36,791 bases of DNA. Source: Candidatus Omnitrophota bacterium (GTDB lineage: Bacteria > Omnitrophota > Gorgyraeia > 1-14-0-20-64-10). Location of the stretch: positions 1-36,791 of the forward strand of contig JACQCH010000039.1 of assembly GCA_016201735.1 (NCBI GenBank). Direction: 5' to 3'. The position numbers and the translations under genes are program-made. Of the stretch, positions 16,648 through 36,791 are shown piece after piece. The notes under the pieces are model-generated. The model was not told the origin of the DNA and searched no databases. It worked only from the letters and a program-made list of their open reading frames with translations. How positions within the stretch are numbered: the stretch's first letter is position 1; each line of letters begins with the position of its first letter.

Positions 16648-16657
16648 TGGTCGAATT

Positions 16658-16711: not shown

Positions 16712-16727
16712 CAACATAGGGGGATTT

Positions 16728-17984: not shown

Positions 17985-18000
17985 GAGTCTATCTACAAAG

Positions 18001-18059: not shown

Positions 18060-18061
18060 AG

Positions 18062-21000
18062 ATGAGTCTGCCCCGTTTTAGCGTCCACCGACCTGTCACC
18101 ACGATTATGATCTACGTGGCGGTCCTTCTCATGGGGGTGATCGCTTGGACCCGTCTTCCCCAGGAATTATATCCTCCCATTACCTATCCGCAGCTGACCG
18201 TGGTGACCCGCTACAAAGACGCCGCGCCCGAGGAGATCGAACTCCTCGTCACCAAGCCGATTGAGGAAGCGGTCGGGACCGTTTCCGGCTTGCGCCGGAT
18301 CAGTTCCGTTTCCAGAGAGGAAGTCTCTCTGGTGATCGCGGAATTCAACTGGAATTCCAACATGGATTTTGCCGCTTTGGGAGTCCGGGAGAAGATCGAC
18401 TTGATCAAGGAACGACTCCCCCGCGGCTCCGAGGATCCGGTGGTCGTCAAATTCAACCCCTTTGAACTTCCCGTCCTGGTCCTAAACCTTTCCGGAGGCC
18501 TTTCTTCCCATGAGCTTCTGGAGTTGGCTCGGAAACAAATCAAGAATGAGTTGGAGAAGGTGGATGGAGTCGCGGCGGTCAACATCTCCGGCGGATTAGA
18601 GCGGGAAATCCAGGTGGAGGTGGACCAGGGGCGCCTTCAGGCGGCGGGCTTGCCGATCTCTCAGGTAGTGGACAGCTTATCGAAGACGAACCTGAATTAT
18701 CCGGGCGGCACCATCAAGGAGGCTTTTTACGAGTATCTGATTCGAACGATGGGAGAGTTTCAGGTCGTTCCGGAAATCCCATCGATCGCCGTTGGAGTCG
18801 ACCAAGCGAAGGGGAAAGCCACCCAGCGGGAGTCCGGGGGGGACCGGCCGGGCCCCTTGAAGCGGGAGAAAGGCCTCGCCCCGTCGCTGAGGATGATTCT
18901 GCTGAAGGATGTGGCAACCGTCAAGGATACCTTTAAGGAGAAGACCTCGGTCTCCCGGTTTAACGGCGCGGAGAACATTTCCTTGAACATCCAGAAGCAG
19001 GCCGGGGCGAACACAGTCCAGGTGGCGAGCCGGATGAAACAGGCCATCGCCCGGGTCCAGTCCTCGCTGCCTCCCGGGGTGCAGTTGACCATCGCCTACG
19101 ATCAGTCCCTCTTTATCAAGAACGCTATTTCGGGGGTCCGCGACGCGGCAATCCAGGGAGGAGTCTTGGCTTTCATTGTGCTGTACCTTTTCCTGGGAAA
19201 CCCGTGGGCTTCCTTGAATGTGGCCGCCGCCATTCCCATCTCGGTTCTTGCGACGATCGGCCTGATGTACTTCAGCGGAACGACGATCAATATCATCTCC
19301 ATGGGCGGGCTTGCCTTGGGGGTGGGACTCCTCGTGGACGCGGGGATTGTCGTCGTGGAGAACATCGACCGATATCGGAGCAAGGGCAAACCTCCCCCGG
19401 AGGCAGCCGTTCAAGGGACGGAGGAAGTGGGGCCCGCCGTCATCGGCTCCATCCTGACCAACGTTGTGGTGTTTCTCCCTATGGTTTTTGTCTCCGGGAT
19501 TGTTGGGCAGCTGTTCAAGGACCTCGCCTATACCGTGACTTGGTCTAACCTCGTCAGCCTCGCGGTTTCCTTAACCCTGACTGCCTTATTTGCTTCCTGG
19601 ATTCGGCATGGAACGGGGCGTTCCCCCATTGAGCCGGCGATCAATGCCTTCCTGCGGTTTGATATGGTGCTGGTCCAGTGGTTCATCCGGCATCGTTTTC
19701 TGGGAATCGGGATTGTGCTCCTCTTATTTGGAGGATCCGTCGTCGGATTCGGGAAGTTGGATCGGGAGGTGCTCCCGAAGGCCGATCAGGGTCAGTTTAA
19801 TCTCCGAATCAATCTATCTCCCGGGACCCGTTTGGAGGTCACGGACCGGGTCGCTCAAAGGGTCGAAAAGGTTCTTCAGGCCGTTCCTGAGGTCCGTGAT
19901 GTGACGGTGACGATCGGCTCCTCGAAGGAGAAGAAGGCCGAGGAGATGGTGGAGACTCTGGGGTCCCATCAGGCGGCCGTTTTTGTCACCTTGAAGCCTC
20001 TTTATCGGGGGTGGAGAAGAATGTCGGGGCCTGGGTTTCGGACCCGGAGGAGCGCTGAGATTGTCAGGGAACTCAAAGACACATTGAGCAGGGAGCCGTT
20101 GGAGGGGGCCGAGATCGAGTACCTTCTCCAAGAATCGGCCATTAAATCCTCCGTCCTCGCCAGCGCCCCCGTCGTAGTGGAAGTCCGGGGGACCGAATTG
20201 CCCCAGATGGAGCAGTTGACCGGTCAGGTGCAGAAACTTTTGGGGGAGATACCGGGTCTCTACGGGGTCCAGACAAGCCTTGTCCCTCCTTCCCCGGAGA
20301 CCAAGGTGCACGTCAACAAGGATCGGGCCTCCGCTTACCACCTGTCGGTCAGCGACATTGCTTTGACGACTCAGACGGCCCTCAAGGGAACCGTGGCCAC
20401 GAAGTTCAAGGAGGCGGGGAAGGAGATCGACATCCGGGTGCGGTTGAGGAAACAGGATCGGGAGGATCTGAACAAAGTGCGCCGCCTGCTCATCCATTCT
20501 CCTTTGGAGATCGACGTCCCCCTGGCAGAGATCGCCTATTTGGCCGTCGGCAAAGGGCCCACGGAGATTAAGCGCCTGGACCAGCAGCGAACCATCCTGA
20601 TCTCCGCCCAGCTGTTTCAGCGCCCCTTAAACGAGGTGATCCAGGATGTGAATCAGAGCTTAAGGGTGTTGAGGATACCCTCCGGCTACACCGTGGCCTT
20701 GACCGGCGAGAACGAACAGATGAAGGAATCCTTCCAGTCCCTGATCTTTGCGCTGGGGCTGGCCGTGATCCTGATCTACATGGTCATGGCGGCAGAATTC
20801 GAGTCCCTCTGGGAGCCGTTTTTAATCATGGCGACGATCCCCATGTCTTTGATCGGGGTGACCTTGGGGTTGTGGGTGACCCACACCCCGGTAAGCGTGA
20901 TGGTGGCCATCGGCTTTATCCTGTTGGGAGGGATCGTCGTCAACAACGGGATTGTCTTAATCGAATATGTGAACCTCTTGAGGAAGGAAGGCAAGAGCGC

Positions 21001-21700
21001 GGAAGAAGCAGTCATCCAGGCCAGCCAGACCCGTTTGAGGCCGATCCTGATGACCGCCGCCGCCGAGGTACTGGGATTGCTTCCGTTGGCTCTCGGCCTT
21101 CAGGAAGGAGTGGAACTCCAGGGTCCCATGGCGATCACTCAAATGTGGGGGATGACCTTGTCCACTTTTCTCACCCTGATTTTTCTCCCCACCCTTTATG
21201 TGATGGGGGAAAACTTCTTCTCCCTTTTCTCTCGCGTGAAGGCTCCGGAGCTGCAGCCTGCGCTCCTGCTCGCGACTGTTCCTGCAGGGTTCCCGCCCCC
21301 GCCTCCCGTTCTCTTGGCAGCGCCAGCGCCGCCGGAGTTTCCGGAAATCCCCGAGGGTTTTGGAGGAGAAGAGGCGGTTCCGGAAGGACCTTCCGTCCTC
21401 TTCCCGTTGTCCGCGGAACCGATCATGAAGCCGGAGCCTTCGGAAGAACCGGTTAAGTTTGAAACGCCCGCCTCGGCCTTCCTTCCCCCCTTGAATCCGA
21501 GACAGAGGCAGCTGCTGGAGTACCTGAAGATCCACGGCCGGATCACCCGGAAAGATTTTGTTAAGTTGACCGGTGCCTCCGTCCCGACGGCGGCTCGTGA
21601 CCTCAAGGAATTGGCGGATCGGGGATTGATCGTTGGCTACGGTCCTTTCGCCAAGGGCAGGTACTATACCTTGGCGAAATCCGAAGGGGATGCGGCGTGA
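18062..21700 (+). CDS. RND efflux permease with C-terminal winged-helix DNA-binding domain
   Basis: At 1,212 residues this is an AcrB-type proton-driven exporter with a long tail. It has the N-terminal FSVHRPVTTIMIYVAVLLMGVIAW helix region, two large periplasmic loops and twelve expected helices. In helix 4 the proton relay reads LVDAGIVVVENI: D426 is kept but the second aspartate is replaced by alanine. Helix 10 reads GGIVVNNGIVLIEY. After the last helix (about 1055) comes a Pro/Glu-rich linker (about 1063-1140) and then about 65 residues starting NPRQRQLLEYLKIHGRITRK with KLTGASVPTAARDLKELADR and a wing ending GRYYTL. The tail matches winged helices found at the ends of Fic-like and DeoR-like proteins. 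RND C-termini face the cytoplasm, so it could touch DNA. The frame is unbroken across the junction. Confidence 0.9.
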   Translation: MSLPRFSVHRPVTTIMIYVAVLLMGVIAWTRLPQELYPPITYPQLTVVTRYKDAAPEEIELLVTKPIEEAVGTVSGLRRISSVSREEVSLVIAEFNWNSNMDFAALGVREKIDLIKERLPRGSEDPVVVKFNPFELPVLVLNLSGGLSSHELLELARKQIKNELEKVDGVAAVNISGGLEREIQVEVDQGRLQAAGLPISQVVDSLSKTNLNYPGGTIKEAFYEYLIRTMGEFQVVPEIPSIAVGVDQAKGKATQRESGGDRPGPLKREKGLAPSLRMILLKDVATVKDTFKEKTSVSRFNGAENISLNIQKQAGANTVQVASRMKQAIARVQSSLPPGVQLTIAYDQSLFIKNAISGVRDAAIQGGVLAFIVLYLFLGNPWASLNVAAAIPISVLATIGLMYFSGTTINIISMGGLALGVGLLVDAGIVVVENIDRYRSKGKPPPEAAVQGTEEVGPAVIGSILTNVVVFLPMVFVSGIVGQLFKDLAYTVTWSNLVSLAVSLTLTALFASWIRHGTGRSPIEPAINAFLRFDMVLVQWFIRHRFLGIGIVLLLFGGSVVGFGKLDREVLPKADQGQFNLRINLSPGTRLEVTDRVAQRVEKVLQAVPEVRDVTVTIGSSKEKKAEEMVETLGSHQAAVFVTLKPLYRGWRRMSGPGFRTRRSAEIVRELKDTLSREPLEGAEIEYLLQESAIKSSVLASAPVVVEVRGTELPQMEQLTGQVQKLLGEIPGLYGVQTSLVPPSPETKVHVNKDRASAYHLSVSDIALTTQTALKGTVATKFKEAGKEIDIRVRLRKQDREDLNKVRRLLIHSPLEIDVPLAEIAYLAVGKGPTEIKRLDQQRTILISAQLFQRPLNEVIQDVNQSLRVLRIPSGYTVALTGENEQMKESFQSLIFALGLAVILIYMVMAAEFESLWEPFLIMATIPMSLIGVTLGLWVTHTPVSVMVAIGFILLGGIVVNNGIVLIEYVNLLRKEGKSAEEAVIQASQTRLRPILMTAAAEVLGLLPLALGLQEGVELQGPMAITQMWGMTLSTFLTLIFLPTLYVMGENFFSLFSRVKAPELQPALLLATVPAGFPPPPPVLLAAPAPPEFPEIPEGFGGEEAVPEGPSVLFPLSAEPIMKPEPSEEPVKFETPASAFLPPLNPRQRQLLEYLKIHGRITRKDFVKLTGASVPTAARDLKELADRGLIVGYGPFAKGRYYTLAKSEGDAA

Positions 21701-21857
21701 CCCCACCCCTCCGGGGTCTCCTCGGCCTTCGGCCTCGTCGGTCAGGGTCCTCACCAGCTCGGACCCGTCGCCATACACGGCCTCGTTATTCCTCGGCCGG
21801 CGACCCTGTCATGGAGCAGGCCAGTTCCGGCCTCGGGCCTTGTGCGGAACTACGAGA

Positions 21858-22260
21858 GGCCCCCGGCTCGTGGGAGGGCTTCTCAGGCCCGCTCGTCGAC
21901 CCCAGCGTGGTCGACTTCGCTAATCGAAAATCCCTCGCTCGTCCCCGGAATTCCAGAGCGCGGGGGACACCGTGCCCGCTCGGAATTTTCATTGCCTTCG
22001 AAGCCCCTCCCCCGAGCCGGGGTCCTCGCATGAGACCTTCGGGGTGGCGGGGAGCGGTCCGATTCCCGTCAGCAGGGCCGACCCTTGAGGCCGAGCCCTG
22101 TCGAATGGAAACCCATGCTGAAATGAACGACCTTCCATGGAACGTCCTGTTGGGTTTGGCCACCTGCCGGTGCTCTGACATGGTGAATGTGAACAATCCA
22201 TCCGAATGAGGCCCGATGCCGGGAACGGACCGCTCCACGCCAGGACCCCGGGGTGGAGCC
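21858..22260 (-). ncRNA. Structured RNA element, copy 2
   Basis: The gap between the two RND genes (21701-22285) holds no credible gene. On the minus strand the core (22025-21858) is closed by a long stem, CCCCGGCTCG with CGAGCCGGGG plus GGGAGGG with CCCTCCC. Inside are the GTCCCC/GGGGAC hairpin and a GTCGACC/GGTCGAC hairpin (21895-21901/21909-21915) whose three changed pairs compensate relative to copy 1; the loop ACGCTGG is unchanged. CCGAGCGGGCA and GAGCGAGGG are kept. The 5' flank to about 22260 shares blocks with copy 1. The remaining 21701-21857 contains only small GC-rich hairpins such as CGGCCTTCGGCC. Confidence 0.68.
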
Positions 22261-22285
22261 GGCACTTGAACTCCGGAGGGGTGGG

Positions 22286-25200
22286 GTGAACCTGCCGAGC
22301 TTCGGGGTAAGACGCCCCGTCACCATCGCGATGCTTTTCCTCTGCTTCATCCTGATCGGGATCATCGGCCTGACGCGACTTCCCATCGAGCTTTATCCCA
22401 ACTTCAGTTTCGGAGATATTTCGGTGATCGTGGATATCCGGGGCGGGATGCCTCCCGTGGAGGTGGAATCCAGAGTTACCAAGATCATTGAGGAAGCGAT
22501 CGGCGATACCACCCACATGAAGGATCTCATCTCCATCTCCGAAGAGGGCCGGGCCCGAGTGGTTTTGTCGTTCGAACCGGGCACCGACATGAATTTTGCC
22601 GCTCTGGAAGTCCGTGAAAAATTCTCGAAGGTTCGGTCCAAGCTGCCGCCGGAGATCGAGAAACCGATCATCGCGAAGTTTGAGCAGAACGACCAGCCGA
22701 TCGTCATCACGGCGGTGACCGCCCTCGATTCCACTCCGGAAATCTTGCGCCGCCTCGTGGATGAACAGATCAAGGATCAGATCATGCGGGTGGAGGGGGT
22801 GGCCAACGTGGAGATTGGAGGCGGCCGGGAGCGGAAGATCCTGATCGAGGTGGATCAGGATAAACTCCAGGCCTACCGCCTGCCCATCGACCGGATCACG
22901 CGGTTCTTGAGTGTGAGCAACTTAAATCTTTTGACCGGGGAGGTGGAGCGGCGGCGCGACAAATACCTGATCCGGGCCATGGGGGAATTCCACTCCCTCT
23001 CGGAGATTGAAAACCTGGGGATTGCCACGACTCCTTCGAACTCGATCATCCGCCTCAAGGACTTGGCGACGGTCAAGGATTCTTTTTTGGAGGCGACCAG
23101 CTTCGCCCGCGTCAACTCCCTCCCGGTCGTCTCCCTCTACATCCAGAAAGAGACGACGGCCAACACCGTCAAGGTGGCTGGGGAGGTCTTGAAGACTTTC
23201 GATCAGATCCAGAAAAACCCCAAGATGCCTCACAATCTGAAATTCATCGTCACCTACAATCAGGCGGTGCAGATCCAGAAGGCGATCGAGGAGGTCGGGT
23301 CTGCCTTGATCAGCGGGGCGGTTCTGACGATCCTGGTTCTGGGGGCCTTTCTGGGCACGAGCCGGTTCGTCCGGCTGCTCTGCATCCCCTTTATGTTCGG
23401 GGTCACGGCTCTGGCGCTGGCAACCTACCGGTACTCGATCGTTCCGATCCATGTCACCACAGGGATCATGGATGGGCTGCTCCTTTTGCTCCTTGCCGGC
23501 GCGGCCATCTGGAAACATCTTCGCCTGACGCTGATCGTCGCGATCGCCATCCCCTTGGCGACGGTCATTACCTTGGGGCTGATGTTTTTTCAGAAGCTCA
23601 CCTTGAACATCATGACTTTAGGGGGTCTGGCGATGGGGATCGGGATGCTGGTGGACAACTCCATCGTCGTCCTGGACAACGTGATCAAACGTCTGTCACA
23701 GGGGCAATCCAAAGAGGCAAGCGCGGTGGAGGGGGCTTCCGAGATGCTCCTGGCGATCGTGGCGGCCACCCTGACCCACATCGTGGTGCTCCTGCCGATT
23801 GTCTTCGTCAACAAGGAGATCCGGATCCTGTACACCGGATTCGCGCTGACGATCAGCTATTCGCTGGCGGCATCCCTCTTTGTGGCCCTGACCGCGGTGC
23901 CTCTGCTGGCGGTGCGGCTGCCCTTTCCGGTGGCCTCCGAAACGTCATCCTCGCGAAAGCGAGGATCGGATTCCCGCTTTCGCGGGAATGACAAAGGGGT
24001 TTTGAAAACGGCGTTCCGAAAAATCATCATCGGCTCGTTAAGATGGCGTTGGGCGATCGGCGTGGGAGCTGTTTTCTTGGTTCTCGCCAGCTTCCAGATT
24101 TTCAAAACCATCCCGAAGGAATTCCTCGGAACAACCGAGGCGGAGGATTTCACGATCTTCGTGGAGCTGCCCACCGGGGCGAAACTGGACATTTCCGATC
24201 AGGCCGTCTCCAAGGTTGAAAAGCTCCTGAAGGATGTTCCGGAGGTCAAATCGGTTTCCTCCCGGGTGGAGCCCTGGTCTTCGAAGGTGTATGTGAAGTT
24301 GGTTCCTTTGTCGGAGCGGAGCCGCTCCACCAAGGACCTGATCGAGTCGCTCCGCCCGCAGGTGCAGGAGGTCGAGAAAGGGATCCGGGAGGCCTTCATC
24401 TATTTTGAAGAACCGGGGCAAACGGAGACCAACGAGGTGATTCTGGAGATTTACGGCTGGGATTACGAGGTTTTAAACCAGCTGGCCGTGGAGATGCTCA
24501 AGAGGATGCAGCAGGTCCAGGGATTGACCGACCTGAAGATCCGCTGGCGCCGGGGCCGGCCGGAATGGGAGATCCGGGTGGACAAGGTCAAGGCGGCCCG
24601 CTTTGGGCTGATGGTGGAAGATGTGGCCAACGCAATCCATGCCCAGATGCGGGGCCTGCGGGCCACCCTTTATCACTCAGCGTCGAAAGAAGTGGAGGTG
24701 ATCACCCGTTTGGAGGAGGCGGACCGGGCGACCTTGGAAAAGCTGCGCCGGATGACCTTCATCCTGCCGAACCGGGAGGTGGTTTTTTTGGAGCAGATTG
24801 CCCGCCTGGAGCCGGGGATCGGCCCCTCCAAGATCTGGCGAAAGAACCATGAACGGATGATCCAGGTTTCCGCCAACCGGGGACGCTACGCTTTTGGGGA
24901 GGCGGCCCAGAAGGTGTTCGAGGCGATTAAGGAAATGCCGTTTCCGAAGGATTATTACTGGCGCTTCGGGGAGAATTATTGGAAATTGATGCAGAATCAA
25001 AAGGAGCTTTCCTTTTCCTTGAGTTTGTCCCTGGTTCTGCTGTTTCTGGTTTTGGCCTCTCTGTTTGAATCTTACACCCAGCCCTTCATCATCATGATCA
25101 CCGTCCCGTTGGCGACCATTGGGTCCGTGGTGATTTTAAAGTTGATGAAACAGGCGTTGAACGTGGGAGCCATGATGGGGGCGATCCTGCTGGGTGGGAT

Positions 25201-25549
25201 TGTGGTGAACAACACGATCATCCTGGTGGATGAAATCAACCGCTTGAGGGGCAGGGGATACCGGCTGAAGCGGGCGTTGGTGGAGGCCAGTTTCAGCCGG
25301 ATCCGGCCGATTGCCATGACCGCCTCCACCACGATCTTAGGCCTTCTTCCCATGGCTTTCAGCCGAACGGAGCAGTCCGCACTTTGGGCGCCGATGGCCC
25401 TCATTGTCCTGGGTGGATTGTCCAGTTCTACTTTTCTGACCCCAATTGTGGCTCCTGGGTTGTACCTGATGCTCGAAGACATCAAACGCCTTTTCGCTCA
25501 CCTGAAACCGGCCCGGAGGCGGTTACAGGTGCCTGTAACCGTATCGTAA
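22286..25549 (+). CDS. Second RND efflux permease, with inserted segments
   Basis: The 1,087-residue exporter starts at GTG 22286, with GGAGGGG at 22275-22281; the earlier in-frame GTG 22253 lies in RNA element copy 2. It opens LPSFGVRRPVTIAMLFLCFIL. Helix 4 reads GMLVDNSIVVLDNV (D457) and helix 10 GGIVVNNTIILVDEIN, patterns of SwrC/YerP-like RNDs. Two oddities stand out. Between helices 2 and 3 (about residues 357-410) an extra 55 residues contain two further hydrophobic spans (LLCIPFMFGVTALALA and GLLLLLLAGAAIW). In the cytoplasmic loop between helices 6 and 7 (about 553-570) a palindromic repeat is translated in frame as SSRKRGSDSRFRGND. It probably shares the adaptor at 16728. Confidence 0.93.
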   Translation: MNLPSFGVRRPVTIAMLFLCFILIGIIGLTRLPIELYPNFSFGDISVIVDIRGGMPPVEVESRVTKIIEEAIGDTTHMKDLISISEEGRARVVLSFEPGTDMNFAALEVREKFSKVRSKLPPEIEKPIIAKFEQNDQPIVITAVTALDSTPEILRRLVDEQIKDQIMRVEGVANVEIGGGRERKILIEVDQDKLQAYRLPIDRITRFLSVSNLNLLTGEVERRRDKYLIRAMGEFHSLSEIENLGIATTPSNSIIRLKDLATVKDSFLEATSFARVNSLPVVSLYIQKETTANTVKVAGEVLKTFDQIQKNPKMPHNLKFIVTYNQAVQIQKAIEEVGSALISGAVLTILVLGAFLGTSRFVRLLCIPFMFGVTALALATYRYSIVPIHVTTGIMDGLLLLLLAGAAIWKHLRLTLIVAIAIPLATVITLGLMFFQKLTLNIMTLGGLAMGIGMLVDNSIVVLDNVIKRLSQGQSKEASAVEGASEMLLAIVAATLTHIVVLLPIVFVNKEIRILYTGFALTISYSLAASLFVALTAVPLLAVRLPFPVASETSSSRKRGSDSRFRGNDKGVLKTAFRKIIIGSLRWRWAIGVGAVFLVLASFQIFKTIPKEFLGTTEAEDFTIFVELPTGAKLDISDQAVSKVEKLLKDVPEVKSVSSRVEPWSSKVYVKLVPLSERSRSTKDLIESLRPQVQEVEKGIREAFIYFEEPGQTETNEVILEIYGWDYEVLNQLAVEMLKRMQQVQGLTDLKIRWRRGRPEWEIRVDKVKAARFGLMVEDVANAIHAQMRGLRATLYHSASKEVEVITRLEEADRATLEKLRRMTFILPNREVVFLEQIARLEPGIGPSKIWRKNHERMIQVSANRGRYAFGEAAQKVFEAIKEMPFPKDYYWRFGENYWKLMQNQKELSFSLSLSLVLLFLVLASLFESYTQPFIIMITVPLATIGSVVILKLMKQALNVGAMMGAILLGGIVVNNTIILVDEINRLRGRGYRLKRALVEASFSRIRPIAMTASTTILGLLPMAFSRTEQSALWAPMALIVLGGLSSSTFLTPIVAPGLYLMLEDIKRLFAHLKPARRRLQVPVTVS
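23944..23992 (+). repeat. Double palindromic repeat translated inside the second RND gene
   Basis: It has the same two hairpins as 18001-18059, here 49 bases, with the GTCATCCTC start and GGGAATGAC end. It is in frame and adds about 17 residues in the loop between predicted helices 6 and 7, where insertion is least likely to disturb the pump. Confidence 0.9.
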
Positions 25550-25928: not shown

Positions 25929-25958
25929 TTGACCTTTAAGGTGGCAATTGGGTATATT
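25929..25958 (+). promoter_or_regulatory. Possible distal promoter in the AT-rich leader
   Basis: TTGACC (25929-25934) and TATATT (25953-25958) are 18 bases apart. Transcription would start near 25965 and carry about 200 extra bases before the riboswitch. Bases 25860-26160 are markedly more AT-rich than the rest of the window and hold no credible gene. Confidence 0.4.
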
Positions 25959-26172: not shown

Positions 26173-26293
26173 TCTCCCCGATAAAGGCAAACCCGTCGCA
26201 AGATGGGGACGCAAAGTCACGGGTCCAACGACCGTTCGTGCTGAGTTTGTCGAAGCACGAACGGCATGGATAGCCGGACTGCCGACATGGAGA
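26173..26293 (+). ncRNA. Cyclic-di-GMP-I (GEMM-I) riboswitch
   Basis: The conserved core is AAAGGCAAACC (26183-26193), then stem CCCGTC-GCAA-GATGGG with a GNRA tetraloop, GGGACGCAAAG, the P3 arm, and ATAGCCGGACTGCCGA (26270-26285). The P3 arm pairs TCCA (26224-26227) with TGGA (26267-26270), has an internal loop resembling a tetraloop receptor, and is then extended by a genomic palindromic repeat. P1 can be closed by TCTCC (26173-26177) and GGAGA (26289-26293). That GGAGA is also the Shine-Dalgarno for ATG 26300, so ligand binding could hide it and switch translation off. G at the position before GCAAACC fits c-di-GMP, though cGAMP variants exist. It lies upstream of the giant secreted-protein gene. 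Confidence 0.88.
26232..26264 (+). repeat. Palindromic repeat forming the distal P3 stem of the riboswitch
   Basis: CCGTTCGTGCT (26232-26242) and AGCACGAACGG (26254-26264) are perfect inverted repeats around GAGTTTGTCGA. The same family lies at 9462-9495. Here it extends the P3 helix beyond the tetraloop-receptor-like internal loop. Confidence 0.85.
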
Positions 26294-26299
26294 ATAACG

Positions 26300-26350
26300 A
26301 TGAGTCGACAGTCCAATGGAACCCAGACGAAATATCCGCGAGTTTTTTAA
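26300..26350 (+). CDS. Putative 16-codon leader peptide ORF after the riboswitch
   Basis: ATG 26300 has GGAGA six bases upstream and reads MSRQSNGTQTKYPRVF before TAA at 26348-26350. Its frame differs from that of the giant gene, which starts 60 bases later. It may be a leader ORF translated under riboswitch control, or the remains of the original start of the giant gene, displaced when a palindromic repeat (26360-26408) inserted. Confidence 0.4.
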   Translation: MSRQSNGTQTKYPRVF

Positions 26351-26359
26351 AGAGGCCCC

Positions 26360-26408
26360 GTCATTCCCGCGAAAGCGGGAATCAGATCCTCGCTTTCGCG
26401 AGGATGAC
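26360..26408 (+). repeat. Double palindromic repeat between riboswitch and giant gene
   Basis: It is the reverse complement of the repeat at 23944-23992: GTCATTCCCGCGAAAGCGGG first, then the GAGGATGAC-ending hairpin. Its right end supplies AGGA (26401-26404), a plausible ribosome binding sequence for TTG 26412. Confidence 0.85.
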
Positions 26409-26411
26409 GCT

Positions 26412-29400
26412 TTGCGGGGGGTGATCATCCCGTTGGATTCCCCGAAGCGGCGGCCGATCCTTCGTTTTATCTCCGCAGTTACCTGCTTTACCTTTATTCT
26501 CACGCAAGCTCCCTTCATTCGAACCGCTTCCGCGCTTCCTACGCATCCGACCGGTGCGGAAAATATAGCCAACCTCAACAGCATCGCCAATGCTTCTAAC
26601 TTGGTTAAATTTGAGCAATCGATTCGCAACCTCCAAGAGAGCATCGAACAGAAACGAAAATACAACGTAGCGATGGCGTCGCTGATCGCTGGGGCTCGAA
26701 TTATTCGGGGAATCGAGTCTCACGTGAACGAGATTGCCCAGGGAGCGCAAACGATCTATCAGGTGAGCTCCGGTGGGACCAATGTCATCGACACCTTGGC
26801 CGGCGTGGCCGGCGGTTACAACATCGCTGCGCCCGGGGATATTTTGTCGATCACCACGAGCGCCAATGGAATCGGCGGCGTGGGAATCGTCAAGCCCGGT
26901 GCCATTGAGTTTAATTATTCCATCCAGAGACAGAAAGACGAGCGGTTTCCTGTCTTAAAGATCTACTTCAAGAACGGGCAGGTTTCCCGAATCACGAATG
27001 AACGGATCAATTCCCCAGGAGGACCTTTCTACCGCGACACGCTGTTCCATCAGTACCACAACGGCCTGCCGATTTCTTACCAGGCCTTTGAGTACCGGGT
27101 GATCGACGACTTGCCTCATGATGCATTTCCCGGCGGGGTCCTGCCTCTGCGGGACATTACCTGGACAGGGAAGTGGAGCGAGGATTCGAAGTTCTATGCC
27201 TCGAAAACAACCCAGGCGAAGAAGAAACTTCTGGAGGAGGCGATCGATACGATCACCTACACAGCTTACACGCCGGGCGACATTCGGCGGATCATGGACA
27301 AGATCGCCGAGGTGACGCAGAACGGGGATTCCCCCGCCTGGGTCAAGGCCATGCAGCAGGCCCTGGCTCCCGGGGGCGGGATCCGGTTGGGAGTGGTGGA
27401 CGAGCGGCGAGACCTGGTTGAGAAGTTCTACCGGGCGCACGATGGACAGGGCCGGCCGACTCATTGGCATGAGGTCCGGACCGATTACTCAGGGATGACG
27501 GAACCGGCCGGAGTCACCGATGCGCAGGTTACCGTCGATTACATCGACGACAGCGAGAAAAAGATACGCACCTACAATGAGGTGGGCACTCACAAGGCGA
27601 TGTTCGTCAGCCCGTCCGGTTACCAGCGGTACGCCGACTGGTCGACGCAAATCCTGGATCATCCCGAGGCCTTCCCGCAGGAACAGGTGGACGCGGCCAG
27701 GCACGTCAGAGAGATGATGAATCCGGGCGGGCAGTTGACTCCGAATCAGCGCTATGAAAGCACCTTCACCCTGGTGCGGACGTACGGCTCAAACGATTAC
27801 AACGACAAAGAAGATCCGATTCATTGGAAGGAACGGCGTACCTCCTCGACCGGCCCGGACACAGAGATAGAGACTACCATGACTTACGATTCCGAGCAGC
27901 GGATGGTCAGGCAGGTGGATGAGATCCGGGAAAAAGGTTCTTATTCGGCGGCAGACATTGATTCGTACTGGGATCTGGTCCGCAGGATCAAGGCCAAAGG
28001 GGTTGACGCCACGGCGGCGGATGTCCAGCGGGCCGGGGACCTGCGGCTTAAATTGGACAGCGGGGAGATCTCCATTGAAACCCCGTTTGTCCGGAATCAG
28101 AAGGTGACCCGGGATGGCTTCGTCTACAACGATTCCCGGCTGTCGGTGGAGTGGATCCAGACGGCCCAAGTCGGCGGCACGGAGACTCGGGAGCGTTTCC
28201 TGACTTATTACAACGACGGGCTCGGCCGCAACCGGGAGCTGTTGGTGTACACCGATGAGAAGACCCGCCTGGAGGACGATGTTCGCCAGAAGCTCCGGGA
28301 GCAGGCGTTGGCGATCTTAAGAAATCCGGACTCGACCGAGGCGGGGCTCAAGGCGGCTCAAGAGACGTTGGCTTTTCTCAGATCGGAGCAAGTGCCGACC
28401 GTTTTTTCCCGCAGTTCCATCCGATACCGTGGAAAGATCATCTACAACGCATCGAATCTTCCGATCGAATACACGGAGGTGACAACTTCCAACGCCGATC
28501 GGATCGCCACCCAGAGCCACGTTCAGGCGATCGTCTACAACCCGATCGGATTGGAGCTAAGCTCCTTCTCTCAGATTCAGCGGACCGGGACGGGCACCCG
28601 CAACGCCTACTTCTTGTCCGACGGGACGACGGAGCTGACCGCCCAGACGGCCCCGATGCTCCGGAGTTTGCTGGCGGCCTATTATTCGACCGGCAAGCAG
28701 GCGGCAATCCAGGATTTGATCGACCTGGGAGAGATCCAGGCCTTTGACGCCCAGGGCAACTCGATCACCGAGCAGCAGATCGAAGGTATCCTCCGGGCCA
28801 ACCCGATCGTCATCAATCAAGCGACCACCGGGAAACTGGTTGACCAGGGGATTCTGGTGAAGCAGCCGGACGGCTCCTATACCGATGGGGACGGCAATGT
28901 GCGGAGTCAGGCCGAGATTGACGCCCTGATTGCCCAATACACCGTTACCCGGCCCAGGACGATCGACGAAGCGATCCAGGACGGTTATTTGAAATTGTTG
29001 GACCGAAGCGGGAATCCTCTGGATGAATCCAGTGTCGCGGTTCTGCTCCGCCGGCATTCGCTGGAACCGCATGTGCCCACACTGGATGAGCTGGTAACGC
29101 GGGGCGCCCTGAAGAAGGTCGAGGGTGTTTCCTACACATTGGATCAGGCCTCCAATGTGTTCCGCCACGGCTTCGCCTACGATCACCTGGCCCGGGTGAT
29201 GGAATTCACCGAAGAGACCACCAATCCCAGCGATGGGATAAAGACCACAACCCATCTTTACGGAATTACCCACGATTCTCAAGGCAGGCAGACTTCATCG
29301 GTGCAGGAGGTCCGCAGACAGGGGACGGGTCTGCGGACAACCCTTTTCTCTGAAGGGGAGGAGCTGTCGGCCCTGGACTTGCAGGAGCAGCTTCCCAAGG

Positions 29401-32400
29401 CGTGGCTCGCGGATTGGAATGGATTTGAGCTCCGGGAAGTCGAGGCCCCGATCGATCTGACCGTGATCACCTACCAGCAGGAGACCAACTACTACGGATT
29501 CAGCACCCTCGCCGAGGGGGGCCGGTCGATCATCAGCACCCGTGGAGGTCCCAGGGACGGGGTGACGGCAACGGAGGAGACCTCCTTGACCCGGTTCAAC
29601 GACAAGGGCCAGCTGCTCAGCCAGTTCGTTAAGACACAGCAGTCAGGGGTGGATACGATCTCCCTTCCTTATATAGGGGATGAGCGGCTGACGATCGAGA
29701 GGATGCAGGCGCTCCAGCAATCTTTCCCGGATTTGACCGTGAAGGACATGTTTGATGTCGGCTTGCTTCGGATGGTGAAACAGCCCAGCATTATGAACAA
29801 CGGGACCCAGACCTACCGGTCCGGGATGGAGTATGAGAAAGAAACAGGATTCCTTAAAAAGCAGATGGAGCTGACCTCCAGCGACCAGAGCCCCGGCAGC
29901 ACCACGGTGGATTTCCTGGACGCCAGCTATTCCTCCACCGGACAGCTCCTTTTCTCCCGGACGAAGAACCGGTCCACCCTGTTTGACCTGGAAGGGTCTA
30001 GCGATCTGATGACCTTCAACGCACTTGATCCCAAGGGACAGCTTCGTTACGCGGAGGCGGTCGGCACCCAGTCCAATTCTGACCTTTTTGGAAGCGGTTC
30101 GGACCGCCTGGTGCGCCGGTACTCCGTTGGGGTGAACGGCCAGTCTAAACTGGTCGCAGATATTTCTATGGGACTCGCCCGGGAGCTGGATGGTTCTGCG
30201 TTCCAAATTGGAGAGCGAACCACGTATCAGTACGATGCCTTCGGCAACGTGGTCCACGCCGATGGATCCAGTACGCGGATAGGGACCGACGTCTGGGGAA
30301 ATTTCTCGAAGCGGAGTCAGCACACCCTGTACGGGGTGATCAACGGGGATCCGAAAGCGGCGCTGACTTTCTCGACGGATCCATCGGAGCTGGGCAAGCC
30401 GGAGCCGCTGGGGACCGGTGCGACGTTCAGCCTGCTGAAGGATCAGGCCAAGCAGCAGGGGATCACCGGTTCCGCGCCGGCGCCGTTCCTGGCGAACCCG
30501 CAGGATTACGACAAGGTGACCGTCGCTGATTTAAGCCTCTTCCAGGTCTACAAATTTCTGCAGAAGTCGGATGGGAAATTGACCGGAGCCCTGATCGACA
30601 TCCCCGGCGTGCAGATCCCGGTCCTGAACGTCAACGACATCAACGTAGATGCCGCCGGGGTCATCACGATCGATTCCGGATCCGGATACAATCACGCCAA
30701 GTATGTCGTCCAGACCCTCTCGGACGGAACCGTCCAGACCACCCGGTACAGCTTCAAGTCGGAGAATTTCACCAGCAAGGAAGTGGAAGCGCAGGTGATG
30801 ATCACCGCTTCCTCCAATGGAGTCACGACGACCACCGACCAGTCGATCAGCTTCAAGGACAACAACGGCGACGGGGATACCGATGATCCGGAGGATCGGG
30901 TGGATGCGACAACGCGCGTGGTCAATGCCATCGGGCTAATCAGCGTTACCTCTCAATACACCGATGGGAATGTCAACGGCACCGTGGCGATCAGCGGAAT
31001 CGGCTATCAGGCTTCCATCTTTAATGTGACGAACGTGACCTTGAACACCGATCAGATCACGGTGGAGGGAACCGGCGTCACCTTCACCATCAACCAAGGA
31101 GCAAGCGGCACCACGATCACCAAGAAGGTCGCCGACAACCTGGATCAGACGCAGAACCAGTCGGTGACGATCCAGCGGCTGACACGGCAGGACGGGGATC
31201 TGACGGTTTCCACGCTGTTGACGGTGGTTCGGAATTCCCAGGATCAGGTGACGAAGGCGACCTGGGTCGATGAGGTGAGCCAGACTGCCTGGGCCACGCT
31301 GACCGCCCGATGGGACGATCATGGGACCGCTTCCGATTTGGCCGATGACACCGCGGCGGTGATCATCAACGGGGAGCAGGGGTACACGACGCATTATTTC
31401 GGAAAGGTGACCGATATCGGGTTTGCTGCCGGCGATCCGGAGCAAGTCGCCTTTGTGGATCATGCGTCGGATGGGACGGATCATACCTACCGGATCCAGC
31501 GGGGGAATTCGGCGCTGACGGTTCAGGACACGACGGCCAGCACTCAGACGGAGACCAGCCGGATCGGCGGGACGATCACCACCCTTTACCGCAACGCCGA
31601 TGGAACGGTCGCACAGACGATCCGGGTGGAGGAAGGCACTTATCTGACCAAGATCAGGACGTATCAGGGAGATTACCAGGCCGACGCGCCGGATCAGAAC
31701 GTGGTGATCGGCGAGGATGTCATCGGCCAGGGATTCACCCGGACCGATCTGCACATCGATTCGGATGGGAATCTCGTTTGGGCCGATGCAAACGGCGACG
31801 TGGTTCGCAGCAACACGAACCCGGGATCGGACTACCATTTGCTGACGACTCAAAGAACAATCTTCTATCTGACCGACTCCAACATTCCGAGTCAGATCGC
31901 CCGGATCACCTACGACGCCAACGACTCTGCCGTTGCGTCTCCCACCGGGGATATCCGGGACGTTTACATGGAGCAGTACAACGATTCCGGGGCGGCGGTG
32001 AAGGTGATGCAGGTGGCCCGGCAGGGAGGCGAGATCCAATGGGCCCGCCAGCAAAAATACGATCAGAGCGGGAGCCGGCAGATCTTCAATTTGGTGATGA
32101 AGACCCATGAGGATGGGTCCCAATACCGGGATCTCGTTGGGATTTTCACCGATGCGAGCGGAGCCCGGACCCGGATCTTCGCGATTCCCGACAACACGGT
32201 GATGGACGGCTCCTTCCCGAAACGGGCCATCCTCGAGATCGCCAACAGCGAACAGGTGGCGCCGCTGAGGATTTACGTGGAATCGGGAGACCCAGCGACT
32301 CTGGCCGCCGATCTTTCCACGCTGACCGAGGACCAATGGGATGGTCTGCTGGGCGGACCGATCGATCTGACGGTGAATGGGCAGACCTACACAGTTCGAT

Positions 32401-35400
32401 TGCCCCAGGTGGGTGATGCGGATGACCATTTGGCAACCCTCTCGGTTCCGGCGCCGACGCCGGTTCGAGGAACGCTGCAGATCGTTTCTTACACCGGATC
32501 CACCTCGCCGCCGGACATCAGCATGCTGGATCTGATGCGGCTGGCCTGGGCCAAGCGGATCTCGGTTCCAGGCGACGGGGATGGAGACGGGGTCGTTGCT
32601 GCCGGTGAAACCACCACCGATCCGAAGAAGGTCCTGGAGTACATCCGGCAGGGCGGCAAGGAGATCACGATTCCGTGGGACACCAACGGGGACGGCCAGA
32701 TCGGATCGGATGAGACCGTGACGGTTCAGCAGGCCGGGTTGGATCTCTCGGTTCTGTTGACGGATCAGCGGGATGCTCTGCTCAACGGGCAGGCCATCTC
32801 GCTGTCTCAGCGCCAAATTATTTCCTTCGTCAATTACACCGGGTCCGGCGCTCCTCCCACATTAGATCAGATCCAGCTCTCTGAGGCCGATCGGAACAAC
32901 CTGATGCTGGGGCAGGATGTCACGGTCGCGGTCAACGGAGACTCGGCGACGATCCGGCGCTTCAAGCCGGACACGGCAAGCAAGTTCGTCACCATTTCCA
33001 AATGGGTCAACGCGGACGGAACGGCCGGGACAGGCACGCCGCCTTCCTTGGACGGGATCTCGTTGGACGATCAGCAGTGGGCCGACCTGCAGAAATTCGG
33101 CGGGGAGATCACGGTGACCCTGGCCGACGGGACCCAGGTGACGCTGAAGTCTCAAGGCGGGCTGGCGGAGGATCAGAACAGCCGGCTCGGCGTCGGCGAC
33201 ACCACCTTGGTCCGGGGCTTGGTCGCCACCAACTTCGATTCCGACGGAAAAGCGACGAGCGGGGTCGTTCAGGAGCAGACTCTCTCCAACATTCAAATGC
33301 AGGCGACTTATTCCCAGGGGATCATCAATTACTTCGGCAATCCGGCCGACTTGAAGCTGGAATTTATTCAGAATGCGGATGGGACGACGACCCGCCGGTA
33401 TCTTTATGCTGCGGACGACCCAGCCCGGCAGATGACGATCGACATTAACCCAGACCAGTTCCTGGAGGCCTACCGACCCCAGATGGAGGGAACGCTTCGA
33501 ATCACCCATACCTTGGACTACGGCTGGATGCCGGCCGTCACCGGCTGGGATGAGATGAATGGGGATCAGGTTGTCCAGCATCACGACGGAGCGACGGAAC
33601 TGCCGCCGGCCCTCAATACCGTTCGGCTCACCGAACAACAGAGGCTGGATCTGGAGGCGGGCAGCTCGGTGGTCCTGACCACCCCGGACAAGAAATATCA
33701 AATCACCATCCAGAAATCCGCGGTGGATCCGGCTTCGTTGACCGATCAGCAGGTCAAGGACTTGAAGGCCGGTCGGTTCCTCTGGGTTGGGAGCGATCTT
33801 TTGGGGCTTCTGACGGTTTCGTCAGGAATTTATTACCTGACCAGCAAGACCACGGAGATTTATCAGGTGGAAGAGAATGCCGCCGGCATTCTCACCGTGA
33901 GAAAGAAAGACGCGCAGGGAGCTTGGACCGAGGATGTCACCGGCTCCTTCGATCAGAAGGAGATGAAGTCATTCCGGGATGCGGTCAGCCAGATCACCAA
34001 GAAACCGACGGAGGGCAGTTCGGACAAATCTCAAGCCAGTTCCGCCCCGGTGGGTTTGAGCCAGCCGATCGCTGTTGATCCGATGCAGGATGAATCCGAC
34101 ACGGACTTGGACGGCAATCGGACGGAGACGGCCCGGATGGCCCGCGTGATCTCCGTCGCGGTGACGGGCGGGACCGATTTCCCCCAGATCTCCGGGTTCG
34201 ACCTATCCGACTCCATGAGCTTAGTGGGCCTGCTGGATTCTTGGGGAAAAGGAGATTTTAAGGATTACAACGGATTCGGCTACCGGTTTGAGCATGCTCC
34301 TGATTTGCCGCCGATTGTCGGGGTCATCGGAGCCAAGGTGCTGATGGGATCGGTGCGGCTGCCTAAGCCGCCGGCCGTCGTCGGCGCCTCGGCGGGTTCG
34401 AATGATTGGAGCGGCACCAATGTGACTTACACGGAGATCACCGGGTCTACTCCTCCCAACGATACCGGTGGAAGCAATCCCTTAGCAGAACAGGTGTACG
34501 CCAAGATCGACCAGACCCTGCGGGATCTGATGTCGACCTTGGGCGGGGCGGCGGCCGGGGCGTTGGGAATTTTAAGCGACGTCCGGATCGTCGATCTGAT
34601 CAACCGCCTCCGGAATGCTTTCGGCGGATTCATCATCAACTGCGGGGCGATTGCACTCTCCGCCTTCCTGCAGGCCCGCGGCTACTTGGCCGATGCGGCG
34701 GATCAGGTGACGGCGGCCGCCCGGTTGATGGTCCGGCAGCTGGTCGATTTTGGAGAAAAGATGATCGTTCAGAGTCTGGTCGGCCCCGCCATCTCCGCCT
34801 ACACCATTCGGATGGTCGCCGATGAGATGGCCGGGGAATCGATGCAGACGATCCAGGTGGGGCCCAATTCAGAGGGGCTGTATCTTCGGATCTTGAGCGC
34901 TTCCGCGATGGCGGCGATCATCCATTTCGCCGACCACTGGGTGACCTTCCTTGGTTTGGTGCAGGGAACGGACGGGACAACTTTAGTGCGATACATCGAT
35001 TCGGATAATCAGGAACATGACCTTGACCTTGTTGATTTTCTCTCTCGCTGGAGGGTCGGCGGTGGTTTTGCCTTGGTGACGAAGACCAATCTCTCATCGG
35101 GAAGCGGAAGCACGCCGGGGCCGCCCGGGCTTCCTCCCACTCCGAGCGGACCCTCAACCGGACAAACGCCCCTTTCCGTCCGTCCGATCGAAGGAACGAA
35201 AGAGCATCTCATCTTCGCTCCTCCCATCGATCCTCATCAGCTCCTGACCGGTGCCCAGCCGATTCCTCTTCTAACCGCCAAGAACATCGACCGGATCGAC
35301 CTCGACGGCACGGCTTCCCATACCGACAACTACCTCCAGTACGACTACAACGAGGAAGGGAAGCTGGTTGGAGGCGTGGGATCCTCGACGACCTACGGGG

Positions 35401-36791
35401 AAACCGTCTTCGGCGAGAAATTCAGCAGCAGCACGCAGGATACTTACATCACCATCCAAGGACAGTTGAAGGTTGCCCAGTCCGTGACGACGAGGACCAG
35501 CTCCCGGCTGGATGGTACCGTGGTGGTCGACACCGGCGAAACCAACTTCGAATATACGAACAACCGGCCGGGCGATCGGGAGGCGCTGATGGCTTCTGCC
35601 TTCTACCGGAATCCGGACGGGACGATCCAGGACCGGTTCCTGCTGCCCAACGGCCGGGTTCGGCGCGGCCTAGTAAGGAGTGTCACCGGCACCGCTTCCT
35701 CTACATGGGTTACCGCCTTCGGTGAGACCGGCGATTCCACCACCGCGCAGAACTACGACATCACCGCGGCCGGAGCCAGGGTAACCCTCTCCGACACGCA
35801 GTCCTCCACTCATGGCATCGATGGGACGGAAACGACCTCCACACAGGTCCGGCAATTTACCTTTGATCCGGCCACCGGGGTTCTCGTGTCGGCCAGCGGA
35901 TTCACCCGCAGCCACTCCACCGATCCCTTCGGGGCGGTAACCGATACTTGGACTACGCCTACCTATCTCATCCTCAATAACCAAGCGCAGGAAGTTGAGG
36001 CATTCACCAGATCGAATACGGTCACCTTAGCCGGAGACGTGATCGATGAGGTTTCTAATGATGAGATTCTAGTCACCACCGGTACGGAAGATCCGGCAAC
36101 TTTGCCGGCCGAATACAGCAACCCATTGCTTGATGGGACTCGTCCTCCCACTGGTCGAGTTTGGGCAGGACTGCAATATGGAAGGAGACAGCAGCTGTTA
36201 ACGGCCGCGCAGATAGAAACTCTGGCACAGGTTGGTTGCGACGTGAGCGCGGCAACCTTAACAGCAATAATGGGAATTGGATTGGTGTATCCAAGGACGG
36301 GGCTATTGCTTCATCCTGGGTCGTTGTCTGTGACCCGTAGCTGGGATGGGTCCAGCACCTACGCCACAAGTTGGCGCCAGTACCAGGTGGTCATGGGGAA
36401 TACGGCAAATCTGCTGAGGCAGACGACCTTCACGATGGGTTTGGATGGGGCGCAGAACTTTCATGGGTCGGTGGGTACGTTTGTTAATGAGTTTAATGAT
36501 CCCATCTTGAAGGCGAGGATCACAGGGCGGCGTGATACGTTGGCGACAACGGCGCAGCTGGAGATTCTGGAGGAGGCGGGTCTTACGATTGGCCCCCTCG
36601 TGGGGACCGTGCTTGGTTCCGGGGTCGCCGGCGCCGCCGGCAATCTGCTGCTGGCCGGCATTTTCGGCGCTGGTTTTCAGTGGGACGGTTCCAGCGACTA
36701 TTCGGTGACGACCAACAAGTATCTGACGACGGTGGTTGCCAACCAGGTGATCACTCCCGAGACCCAGACGGTGGGCGGCGGTTTCAGAGCC
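26412..36791 (+). CDS. Giant secreted protein, at least 3,460 codons, open at the window edge
   Basis: One frame stays open from TGA 26301 to the window edge. TTG 26412 (AGGA at 26401-26404) or GTG 26421 is the likely start. A signal peptide follows: KRRPILR, hydrophobic FISAVTCFTFIL, end near TASA. Residues 40-110 look helical; then come long beta-rich stretches with YD/RHS-like strands (FAYDHLARVMEFTEET near 919). Three EF-hand loops are visible: DNNGDGDTDDPE (1483), DGDGDGVVAAGE (2055), DTNGDGQIGSDE (2090). Six or so units of the type LTxxQxxxLxxG plus a beta-hairpin lie at 32300-33800. About 2690-2890 is a C39-like peptidase: INCGAIALSAFLQ with C2744, ADHWVTFLG with H2842, and YIDSD with D2863. 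A Pro/Gly-rich linker and more repeats follow. It is probably a surface or extracellular protein under c-di-GMP control. Confidence 0.85.
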   Translation, partial: MRGVIIPLDSPKRRPILRFISAVTCFTFILTQAPFIRTASALPTHPTGAENIANLNSIANASNLVKFEQSIRNLQESIEQKRKYNVAMASLIAGARIIRGIESHVNEIAQGAQTIYQVSSGGTNVIDTLAGVAGGYNIAAPGDILSITTSANGIGGVGIVKPGAIEFNYSIQRQKDERFPVLKIYFKNGQVSRITNERINSPGGPFYRDTLFHQYHNGLPISYQAFEYRVIDDLPHDAFPGGVLPLRDITWTGKWSEDSKFYASKTTQAKKKLLEEAIDTITYTAYTPGDIRRIMDKIAEVTQNGDSPAWVKAMQQALAPGGGIRLGVVDERRDLVEKFYRAHDGQGRPTHWHEVRTDYSGMTEPAGVTDAQVTVDYIDDSEKKIRTYNEVGTHKAMFVSPSGYQRYADWSTQILDHPEAFPQEQVDAARHVREMMNPGGQLTPNQRYESTFTLVRTYGSNDYNDKEDPIHWKERRTSSTGPDTEIETTMTYDSEQRMVRQVDEIREKGSYSAADIDSYWDLVRRIKAKGVDATAADVQRAGDLRLKLDSGEISIETPFVRNQKVTRDGFVYNDSRLSVEWIQTAQVGGTETRERFLTYYNDGLGRNRELLVYTDEKTRLEDDVRQKLREQALAILRNPDSTEAGLKAAQETLAFLRSEQVPTVFSRSSIRYRGKIIYNASNLPIEYTEVTTSNADRIATQSHVQAIVYNPIGLELSSFSQIQRTGTGTRNAYFLSDGTTELTAQTAPMLRSLLAAYYSTGKQAAIQDLIDLGEIQAFDAQGNSITEQQIEGILRANPIVINQATTGKLVDQGILVKQPDGSYTDGDGNVRSQAEIDALIAQYTVTRPRTIDEAIQDGYLKLLDRSGNPLDESSVAVLLRRHSLEPHVPTLDELVTRGALKKVEGVSYTLDQASNVFRHGFAYDHLARVMEFTEETTNPSDGIKTTTHLYGITHDSQGRQTSSVQEVRRQGTGLRTTLFSEGEELSALDLQEQLPKAWLADWNGFELREVEAPIDLTVITYQQETNYYGFSTLAEGGRSIISTRGGPRDGVTATEETSLTRFNDKGQLLSQFVKTQQSGVDTISLPYIGDERLTIERMQALQQSFPDLTVKDMFDVGLLRMVKQPSIMNNGTQTYRSGMEYEKETGFLKKQMELTSSDQSPGSTTVDFLDASYSSTGQLLFSRTKNRSTLFDLEGSSDLMTFNALDPKGQLRYAEAVGTQSNSDLFGSGSDRLVRRYSVGVNGQSKLVADISMGLARELDGSAFQIGERTTYQYDAFGNVVHADGSSTRIGTDVWGNFSKRSQHTLYGVINGDPKAALTFSTDPSELGKPEPLGTGATFSLLKDQAKQQGITGSAPAPFLANPQDYDKVTVADLSLFQVYKFLQKSDGKLTGALIDIPGVQIPVLNVNDINVDAAGVITIDSGSGYNHAKYVVQTLSDGTVQTTRYSFKSENFTSKEVEAQVMITASSNGVTTTTDQSISFKDNNGDGDTDDPEDRVDATTRVVNAIGLISVTSQYTDGNVNGTVAISGIGYQASIFNVTNVTLNTDQITVEGTGVTFTINQGASGTTITKKVADNLDQTQNQSVTIQRLTRQDGDLTVSTLLTVVRNSQDQVTKATWVDEVSQTAWATLTARWDDHGTASDLADDTAAVIINGEQGYTTHYFGKVTDIGFAAGDPEQVAFVDHASDGTDHTYRIQRGNSALTVQDTTASTQTETSRIGGTITTLYRNADGTVAQTIRVEEGTYLTKIRTYQGDYQADAPDQNVVIGEDVIGQGFTRTDLHIDSDGNLVWADANGDVVRSNTNPGSDYHLLTTQRTIFYLTDSNIPSQIARITYDANDSAVASPTGDIRDVYMEQYNDSGAAVKVMQVARQGGEIQWARQQKYDQSGSRQIFNLVMKTHEDGSQYRDLVGIFTDASGARTRIFAIPDNTVMDGSFPKRAILEIANSEQVAPLRIYVESGDPATLAADLSTLTEDQWDGLLGGPIDLTVNGQTYTVRLPQVGDADDHLATLSVPAPTPVRGTLQIVSYTGSTSPPDISMLDLMRLAWAKRISVPGDGDGDGVVAAGETTTDPKKVLEYIRQGGKEITIPWDTNGDGQIGSDETVTVQQAGLDLSVLLTDQRDALLNGQAISLSQRQIISFVNYTGSGAPPTLDQIQLSEADRNNLMLGQDVTVAVNGDSATIRRFKPDTASKFVTISKWVNADGTAGTGTPPSLDGISLDDQQWADLQKFGGEITVTLADGTQVTLKSQGGLAEDQNSRLGVGDTTLVRGLVATNFDSDGKATSGVVQEQTLSNIQMQATYSQGIINYFGNPADLKLEFIQNADGTTTRRYLYAADDPARQMTIDINPDQFLEAYRPQMEGTLRITHTLDYGWMPAVTGWDEMNGDQVVQHHDGATELPPALNTVRLTEQQRLDLEAGSSVVLTTPDKKYQITIQKSAVDPASLTDQQVKDLKAGRFLWVGSDLLGLLTVSSGIYYLTSKTTEIYQVEENAAGILTVRKKDAQGAWTEDVTGSFDQKEMKSFRDAVSQITKKPTEGSSDKSQASSAPVGLSQPIAVDPMQDESDTDLDGNRTETARMARVISVAVTGGTDFPQISGFDLSDSMSLVGLLDSWGKGDFKDYNGFGYRFEHAPDLPPIVGVIGAKVLMGSVRLPKPPAVVGASAGSNDWSGTNVTYTEITGSTPPNDTGGSNPLAEQVYAKIDQTLRDLMSTLGGAAAGALGILSDVRIVDLINRLRNAFGGFIINCGAIALSAFLQARGYLADAADQVTAAARLMVRQLVDFGEKMIVQSLVGPAISAYTIRMVADEMAGESMQTIQVGPNSEGLYLRILSASAMAAIIHFADHWVTFLGLVQGTDGTTLVRYIDSDNQEHDLDLVDFLSRWRVGGGFALVTKTNLSSGSGSTPGPPGLPPTPSGPSTGQTPLSVRPIEGTKEHLIFAPPIDPHQLLTGAQPIPLLTAKNIDRIDLDGTASHTDNYLQYDYNEEGKLVGGVGSSTTYGETVFGEKFSSSTQDTYITIQGQLKVAQSVTTRTSSRLDGTVVVDTGETNFEYTNNRPGDREALMASAFYRNPDGTIQDRFLLPNGRVRRGLVRSVTGTASSTWVTAFGETGDSTTAQNYDITAAGARVTLSDTQSSTHGIDGTETTSTQVRQFTFDPATGVLVSASGFTRSHSTDPFGAVTDTWTTPTYLILNNQAQEVEAFTRSNTVTLAGDVIDEVSNDEILVTTGTEDPATLPAEYSNPLLDGTRPPTGRVWAGLQYGRRQQLLTAAQIETLAQVGCDVSAATLTAIMGIGLVYPRTGLLLHPGSLSVTRSWDGSSTYATSWRQYQVVMGNTANLLRQTTFTMGLDGAQNFHGSVGTFVNEFNDPILKARITGRRDTLATTAQLEILEEAGLTIGPLVGTVLGSGVAGAAGNLLLAGIFGAGFQWDGSSDYSVTTNKYLTTVVANQVITPETQTVGGGFRA
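32574..32714 (+). other. Two EF-hand-type calcium-binding loops in the giant protein
   Basis: Residues 2055-2066 read DGDGDGVVAAGE and residues 2090-2101 read DTNGDGQIGSDE. Both fit the 12-residue loop pattern with acidic or Asn side chains at 1, 3 and 5, Gly at 6, a hydrophobic residue at 8 and Glu at 12. Calcium could stiffen the chain outside the cell. A third, less regular loop is at 30858-30893. Confidence 0.7.
34480..35060 (+). other. C39-like cysteine-peptidase domain inside the giant protein
   Basis: INCGAIALSAFLQARGY resembles the (Q/N)CGxxxL helix start of papain-like C39 peptidases, with C2744 as the nucleophile candidate. About 98 residues on, ADHWVTFLGLV offers H2842, and RYIDSDN offers D2863, with spacing close to C39 enzymes. 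The usual oxyanion-hole Gln is replaced by Asn, so activity is uncertain. A Pro-rich linker ends the domain. Confidence 0.55.

Follow-up and report, generated by a model that had tools for sequence, protein, structure and literature searches.

A c-di-GMP-class riboswitch precedes the 5′ part of a giant Omnitrophota gene predicted to encode a secreted protein with an embedded C39 peptidase domain

Giant open reading frames of more than 20 kb have been described in Omnitrophota, most of them with few annotated domains and proposed to encode adhesins or predation factors; Candidatus Velamenicoccus archaeovorus has a giant protein of 39,678 residues, and the peptides of one Omnitrophota giant increased 3-fold in attached cells (PMC10066038). 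The stretch of DNA analysed here, hereafter the window, is 36,791 nucleotides long and comes from a bacterium of the same phylum, in agreement with the initial annotation, which from the letters alone had been reminded of these ORFs. The window protein can be likened by description to the Velamenicoccus giant, with which it has in common the phylum, the great length, the scarcity of domains and the proposed surface or predation role; a term search of the text of that paper found neither a riboswitch nor a C39 domain (PMC10066038). A literature search returned no paper pairing Omnitrophota or Omnitrophica with a riboswitch. Omnitrophota giants are, then, already known, but a riboswitch-gated orthologous group with an embedded C39 domain was not found in the literature searched. 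The role and the control of these giants are still open (PMC10066038), and the conserved riboswitch offers a tangible way to approach them.

The large adhesins of the LapA type and of Vibrio cholerae (PMC6890996) are likewise giant secreted repeat proteins under c-di-GMP, from which the window protein differs in its Sec-type signal peptide, in the embedded C39 domain and in being controlled by a riboswitch. The type I secretion signal of LapA-type adhesins was not seen in the window protein, whose C-terminus lies beyond the contig. Taking the evidence together, we rather favour the reading that the window holds the 5′ part of a giant Omnitrophota gene for a secreted surface protein, switched on by c-di-GMP, adhesive or coat-like in nature and processed by its C39 domain. 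All the coordinates given below refer to the + strand of the window.

The giant ORF occupies positions 26316..36791, as deduced from the open frame and from its homologues. Counted from 26304, 3,496 codons follow without a stop before the window ends, the first listed start being the ATG at 26316; this ATG, the GTG at 26421 and the TTG at 26433 are the candidate start codons. From 26421 to 36791, where the absence of stops had been claimed, 3,457 residues were indeed translated without interruption, for which the chance, calculated from base composition, is about 1e-53, and the GC content by codon position is regular all along the frame (0.57-0.58/0.43-0.48/0.73-0.77). Neither a stop nor a frameshift, by which the initial annotation considered that its reading might fall, was found inside this interval, and homologues 31-52% identical in other, divergent genera also keep the frame open, hence the frame is not an artefact. 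The giant gene is real by sequence comparison, with orthologues in its own family as well as in further families of the class. The product was said to continue past the window. The window covers an entire contig of 36,791 bp, one of the 67 pieces of a 1.81 Mb assembly that is 95% complete, and the frame is still open where this contig stops, so that the gene is truncated and the 10.4 kb visible give a minimum length of about 3,460 codons. The suggested extension beyond 36791 did not succeed, as a search of the own genome with the window protein and with the repeat regions of loci L134 and L137 returned the same contig only. No DNA tandem repeats were found in the window, and viral contigs searched with the C-terminal part of the giant protein gave no match.

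Long open frames matching the window protein occur in its own family (genomes G003, G004, G005, G007 and G008) and order, with weaker matches in three further genomes of the class, G019, G027 and G058. When the first 560 residues were made into a profile, matches were obtained in 97 out of 384 genomes of the class; about two dozen of these span much of the N-terminus, while most of the others consist of the signal-like start alone. No complete orthologue was found and no copy examined has a natural stop, the copies ending at contig ends, at a frameshift (G143), or at an N-gap or frame change (G003, G191). The frame of L134 breaks off within a near-perfect protein repeat, which makes repeated DNA a plausible cause of the broken-off copies. 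These sequences were shown to form an orthologous group within the class, whose members have in common the predicted signal peptide at the start, modules of strand-rich repeats and embedded putative C39 cysteine-peptidase domains. Many other giant ORFs of the class, reaching 17,674 residues and mostly lacking a c-di-GMP riboswitch, also open with a signal-like sequence that is conserved at their N-terminus (W-I/L-K/R-x-I-A/S ... F ... D/Q-I/L-x-W/Y-A/G; L101-L132).

The signal peptide that had been claimed is read directly in the sequence as KRRPILRFISAVTCFTFILTQ...ASA, residues 1-38, or more narrowly 8-38, counted from the GTG at 26421 (26421..26534 for 1-38), and this segment is conserved in five same-family proteins and across the class. 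Next come a helical stretch (residues 58-115, 26592..26765; AlphaFold2 secondary structure of low confidence), repeats of about 110 residues (residues 200-658, 27018..28394; pLDDT mostly 55-94), each modelled by AlphaFold2 as a helical hairpin together with long antiparallel strands, and short helix-strand repeats (residues 740-900, 28638..29120; AlphaFold2, pLDDT 73-87 over 760-880). Repeats 2, 3 and 4 of the ~110-residue type match one another profile-to-profile with a probability of 77-97%. YD-like repeats had been read in this protein, a claim that may stand at the level of the fold, the top solved folds found by Foldseek for the N-terminal repeats being RHS/teneurin shells (E from 3e-7 to 1e-4, TM about 0.1), but not at that of the sequence, where the Pfam RHS repeat models gave no match up to E 0.1. 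RHS/YD shells (the BC component of Tc complexes, Rhs proteins, teneurins) likewise have long antiparallel strands in repeats, whereas the window protein has helical hairpins between the sheets and superposes weakly overall; given the TM near 0.1 and the missing Pfam repeat, we do not claim RHS membership. EF-hand loops, also announced by the initial annotation, were recovered by pattern scans: a loose pattern gave three, at 30858..30893 (DNNGDGDTDDPE) and as a pair within 32574..32714 (DGDGDGVVAAGE at 32574 and DTNGDGQIGSDE at 32679), against 0.04 expected from shuffles, and a strict pattern gave two, against 0.003 expected. The AlphaFold check that had been proposed proved fair for residues 200-658, but poor for the C39 domain and the part that follows it (mean pLDDT 40.8), and the Foldseek matches of this last model were set aside.

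The internal peptidase-like domain seen at the outset can be specified as a probable C39-type cysteine peptidase, on account of its invariant Cys and His and of the profile matches of the homologue group. Homologue alignment and profiles place it at residues 2673-2902 (34437..35126), with Cys2741 at 34641-34643, His2839 at 34935-34937 and Asp2860 (34998-35000) as candidate third residue; the catalytic Cys and His are invariant in all ten homologous C39 domains, and the Asp is present in most members. The group profile matches solved C39 domains (PDB 7n87, E 2.6e-5; 6mpz, E 6.9e-5), and PF03412 is matched by five members out of ten at E ≤ 1, with 91 bits in L060 and 102 bits in L058 against a cut-off of 22, while the window's own copy gave no Pfam match to PF03412 at E ≤ 1. 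The C39 peptidases of PCAT/bacteriocin ABC transporters and FapD, whose model is weakly matched by L060, share the Cys and His; unlike in these, the domain lies here within a secreted giant protein in which Pfam matched no ABC transporter parts. One relative bears three C39 domains. The usual substrates of C39 enzymes are leader peptides from their own system. Most likely, the domain trims its own protein or processes partners during maturation, and being conserved it represents a defined enzyme to assay. A Pro/Ser-rich linker follows, and then long-strand repeats that run past the contig end (35127..36791, conserved with L134), modelled at low confidence as regular strands of 9-14 residues. 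VIA-align matches to TOM40, VDAC and porins were taken as generic long antiparallel strands.

Upstream of the gene, a c-di-GMP riboswitch had been reported, and in fact an aptamer of the c-di-GMP-I class (GEMM-I; RF01051, RF03167) was found at 26177..26287, its best Rfam model being c-di-GMP-I-GGC (RF03167; 70.9 bits against a gathering cut-off of 59, E 5e-15). A consensus scan gave a promoter-like site, TTGACC-18-TATATT, before it at 25929..25958, one of three such sites in the region against 0.8 expected. The nucleotides of the aptamer which we take to be 20 and 47 in the Vc2 numbering are G and A, respectively, and by these two positions it is of the c-di-GMP type. We had considered that the c-di-GMP-I-GGC label might denote an altered specificity, and dropped the idea as position 47, so assigned, is A in the window instead of G. 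The association with the gene is conserved: a c-di-GMP-I aptamer lies upstream of 17 of the 19 orthologue starts examined (G000, G002, G003, G005, G007, G008, G010, G019, G027, G058 with two loci, G102, G143, G191, G218, G234 and G240), weak in G005, G007 and G008, and undetectable upstream of the orthologues of G004 and G131. This arrangement, kept in the relatives, suggests that c-di-GMP switches the surface protein on. Of 31 loci selected chiefly because they share the short signal-like start, a single one (L112) has the aptamer, and on this count a riboswitch common to all the giant ORFs of the class was rejected. RF03167 matches were present in all 20 genomes tested and in none of the 14 control genomes.

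The source genome has 14 c-di-GMP riboswitches, others of which precede a Flp pilin/TadE/RcpC cluster on C62 (Flp and TadE called by eye from sequence, RcpC by Pfam), a TPS exoprotein, a kelch/laminin-G giant and proteins with a signal-like start; we infer that these genes look like a surface and attachment regulon. The kelch/laminin-G giant is an ORF of 4,027 codons (L014:7297-19377, G000:C57) with DUF2341 matches as well and a hydrophobic C-terminal segment, and the TPS-domain ORF (L012:6178-10797, G000:C25) has at least about 1,500 codons and runs off its contig end. In the window itself, Pfam identified conserved neighbours of the giant gene at 14736..25549, namely an OEP (14736-16607), an HlyD-type MFP (16728-17984) and two RND pumps (18062-21700 and 22253-25549). 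Unusually for an AcrB protein, the first RND pump shows a helix-turn-helix-like match in its C-terminal part (HTH_DeoR, residues 1147-1190).

The likely mechanism of the switch is best seen in the relatives. In nine of them (L058, L059, L060, L093-L098) a terminator hairpin (-19 to -25 kcal/mol, with a U-run behind it) uses as its 5′ arm the aptamer's own 3′ strand (AGCCGAGUUGCC or similar). The ligand must hold this strand in the aptamer, and thus the relatives' loci should be transcriptional ON switches: if no ligand is present, the strand would pair downstream and form the terminator, and once the ligand is bound it would stay in the aptamer and transcription would go on. In the window, an anti-aptamer hairpin (26276..26314; the aptamer 3′ strand 26276-26286 pairs with 26304-26314) sits where the relatives have their terminators and is built in the same way, with a stability of -14.8 kcal/mol when folded alone, and it is kept in L052 and L055, too. 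It differs from the usual class-I platforms in that no U-run follows it, so that control may here be exerted on translation, or be weaker. The ATG at 26316 lies just past the hairpin, as in-frame GTG codons do in L052 and L055, which makes translational control possible. A leader reading frame of 16 codons, MSRQSNGTQTKYPRVF, was also read from the sequence at 26300..26350, with a GGAG seven bases before its ATG, i.e., a good ribosome site.

Genome-wide pattern scans revealed that this leader hosts two dispersed palindromic repeats, one in the P3 loop of the aptamer (26235..26261; 36 genome copies at up to 2 mismatches, against none for the reversed control pattern) and the core of a second at 26364..26383 (26 genome copies at up to 1 mismatch). 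Further copies of palindromic repeats occur in the window at 18036-18055 and 23969-23988, one of them within the RND reading frame 22253-25549. With the U-run missing and two palindromes inserted, the switch might be impaired in this species, and one could suppose that the palindromes broke the expression platform, leaving a decayed or constitutive leader and a giant gene that is no longer gated by c-di-GMP. The terminator scan of the window leader, which found none, agrees with such a decay, as does the position of the palindromes; on the other hand, the aptamer core still scores 70.9 bits, and the anti-aptamer hairpin, preserved here and in the two relatives, fits translational control, and we regard the loss of gating as unlikely.

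We favour, as stated above, a c-di-GMP-gated adhesive or coat-like surface protein. According to this model, when c-di-GMP rises the giant protein would be made along with Flp/Tad pili and other surface giants, so that the riboswitch predicts when one group of giants is produced; the protein would cross the inner membrane by Sec, fold outside the cell with calcium at the EF-hand loops, and form a long adhesive or coat-like fibre. Its adhesin-like character is suggested by the control signal, the secretion signal, the neighbouring regulon and the literature, and a role in attachment or predation is likely. The protein could instead be an attack factor, in which an RHS-type or coat shell carries a C39 domain that digests or processes proteins of the target cell during predation, as the solved folds nearest to the N-terminal repeats, the role in predation proposed for Omnitrophota giants (PMC10066038) and the triple C39 domain of one relative might indicate. 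The failure of every Pfam RHS repeat model to reach the window protein, the TM near 0.1 and the usual action of C39 enzymes on their own system speak against it, and the C-terminal part, where an effector would be sought, is beyond the contig; we hold this alternative to be doubtful. Still less probable, in our opinion, is a structural capsule or coat whose linked RND/MFP/OEP operon exports a ligand or lipid for surface assembly. It would explain the OEP and MFP genes found ahead of the giant gene in the window and the AcrB-type gene directly upstream of it at seven out of seven loci of the family, the order and G019 (besides the window, L052, L053, L055, L056, L057 and L060), but no AcrB-type neighbour was found at the loci of family f19 examined, which have a tRNA gene or other genes in that place, and no RND pump is known to export large proteins. 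The tRNA gene was observed at L093-L100, where it precedes the giant gene by about 450-700 bp and takes the place that an RND gene has in the other families.

The same family f19 differs from the usual class-I riboswitches in the aptamer itself, as in L058, L059 and L093-L099 nucleotide 20 is A, which has been associated with selectivity for cGAMP. A Geobacter riboswitch is selective for cGAMP with A20 and for c-di-GMP with G20 (PMC6456294), and this nucleotide has been termed a selectivity factor and not a hard filter (PMC9262584). A tentative, broader proposal, to which we give little weight, is that these are self-processing giants switched on by cyclic dinucleotides, with the sensor differing by lineage between G20/c-di-GMP in the family of the window and A20/cGAMP in another family, and with the giant protein serving attachment to prey or host cells. 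A synthesis of cGAMP in f19 by a Hypr GGDEF protein was discarded, as the motif GHxxG[ST] was absent from 30 genomes, in 27 of which a looser control pattern did match, nearly always as GHxxGD; with no source of cGAMP found and a working control, its use in f19 is unproven, and the A20 of this one family raises a testable ligand switch. The source genome has three GGDEF-type NDxxGHxxGD motifs, i.e., c-di-GMP signalling is present.
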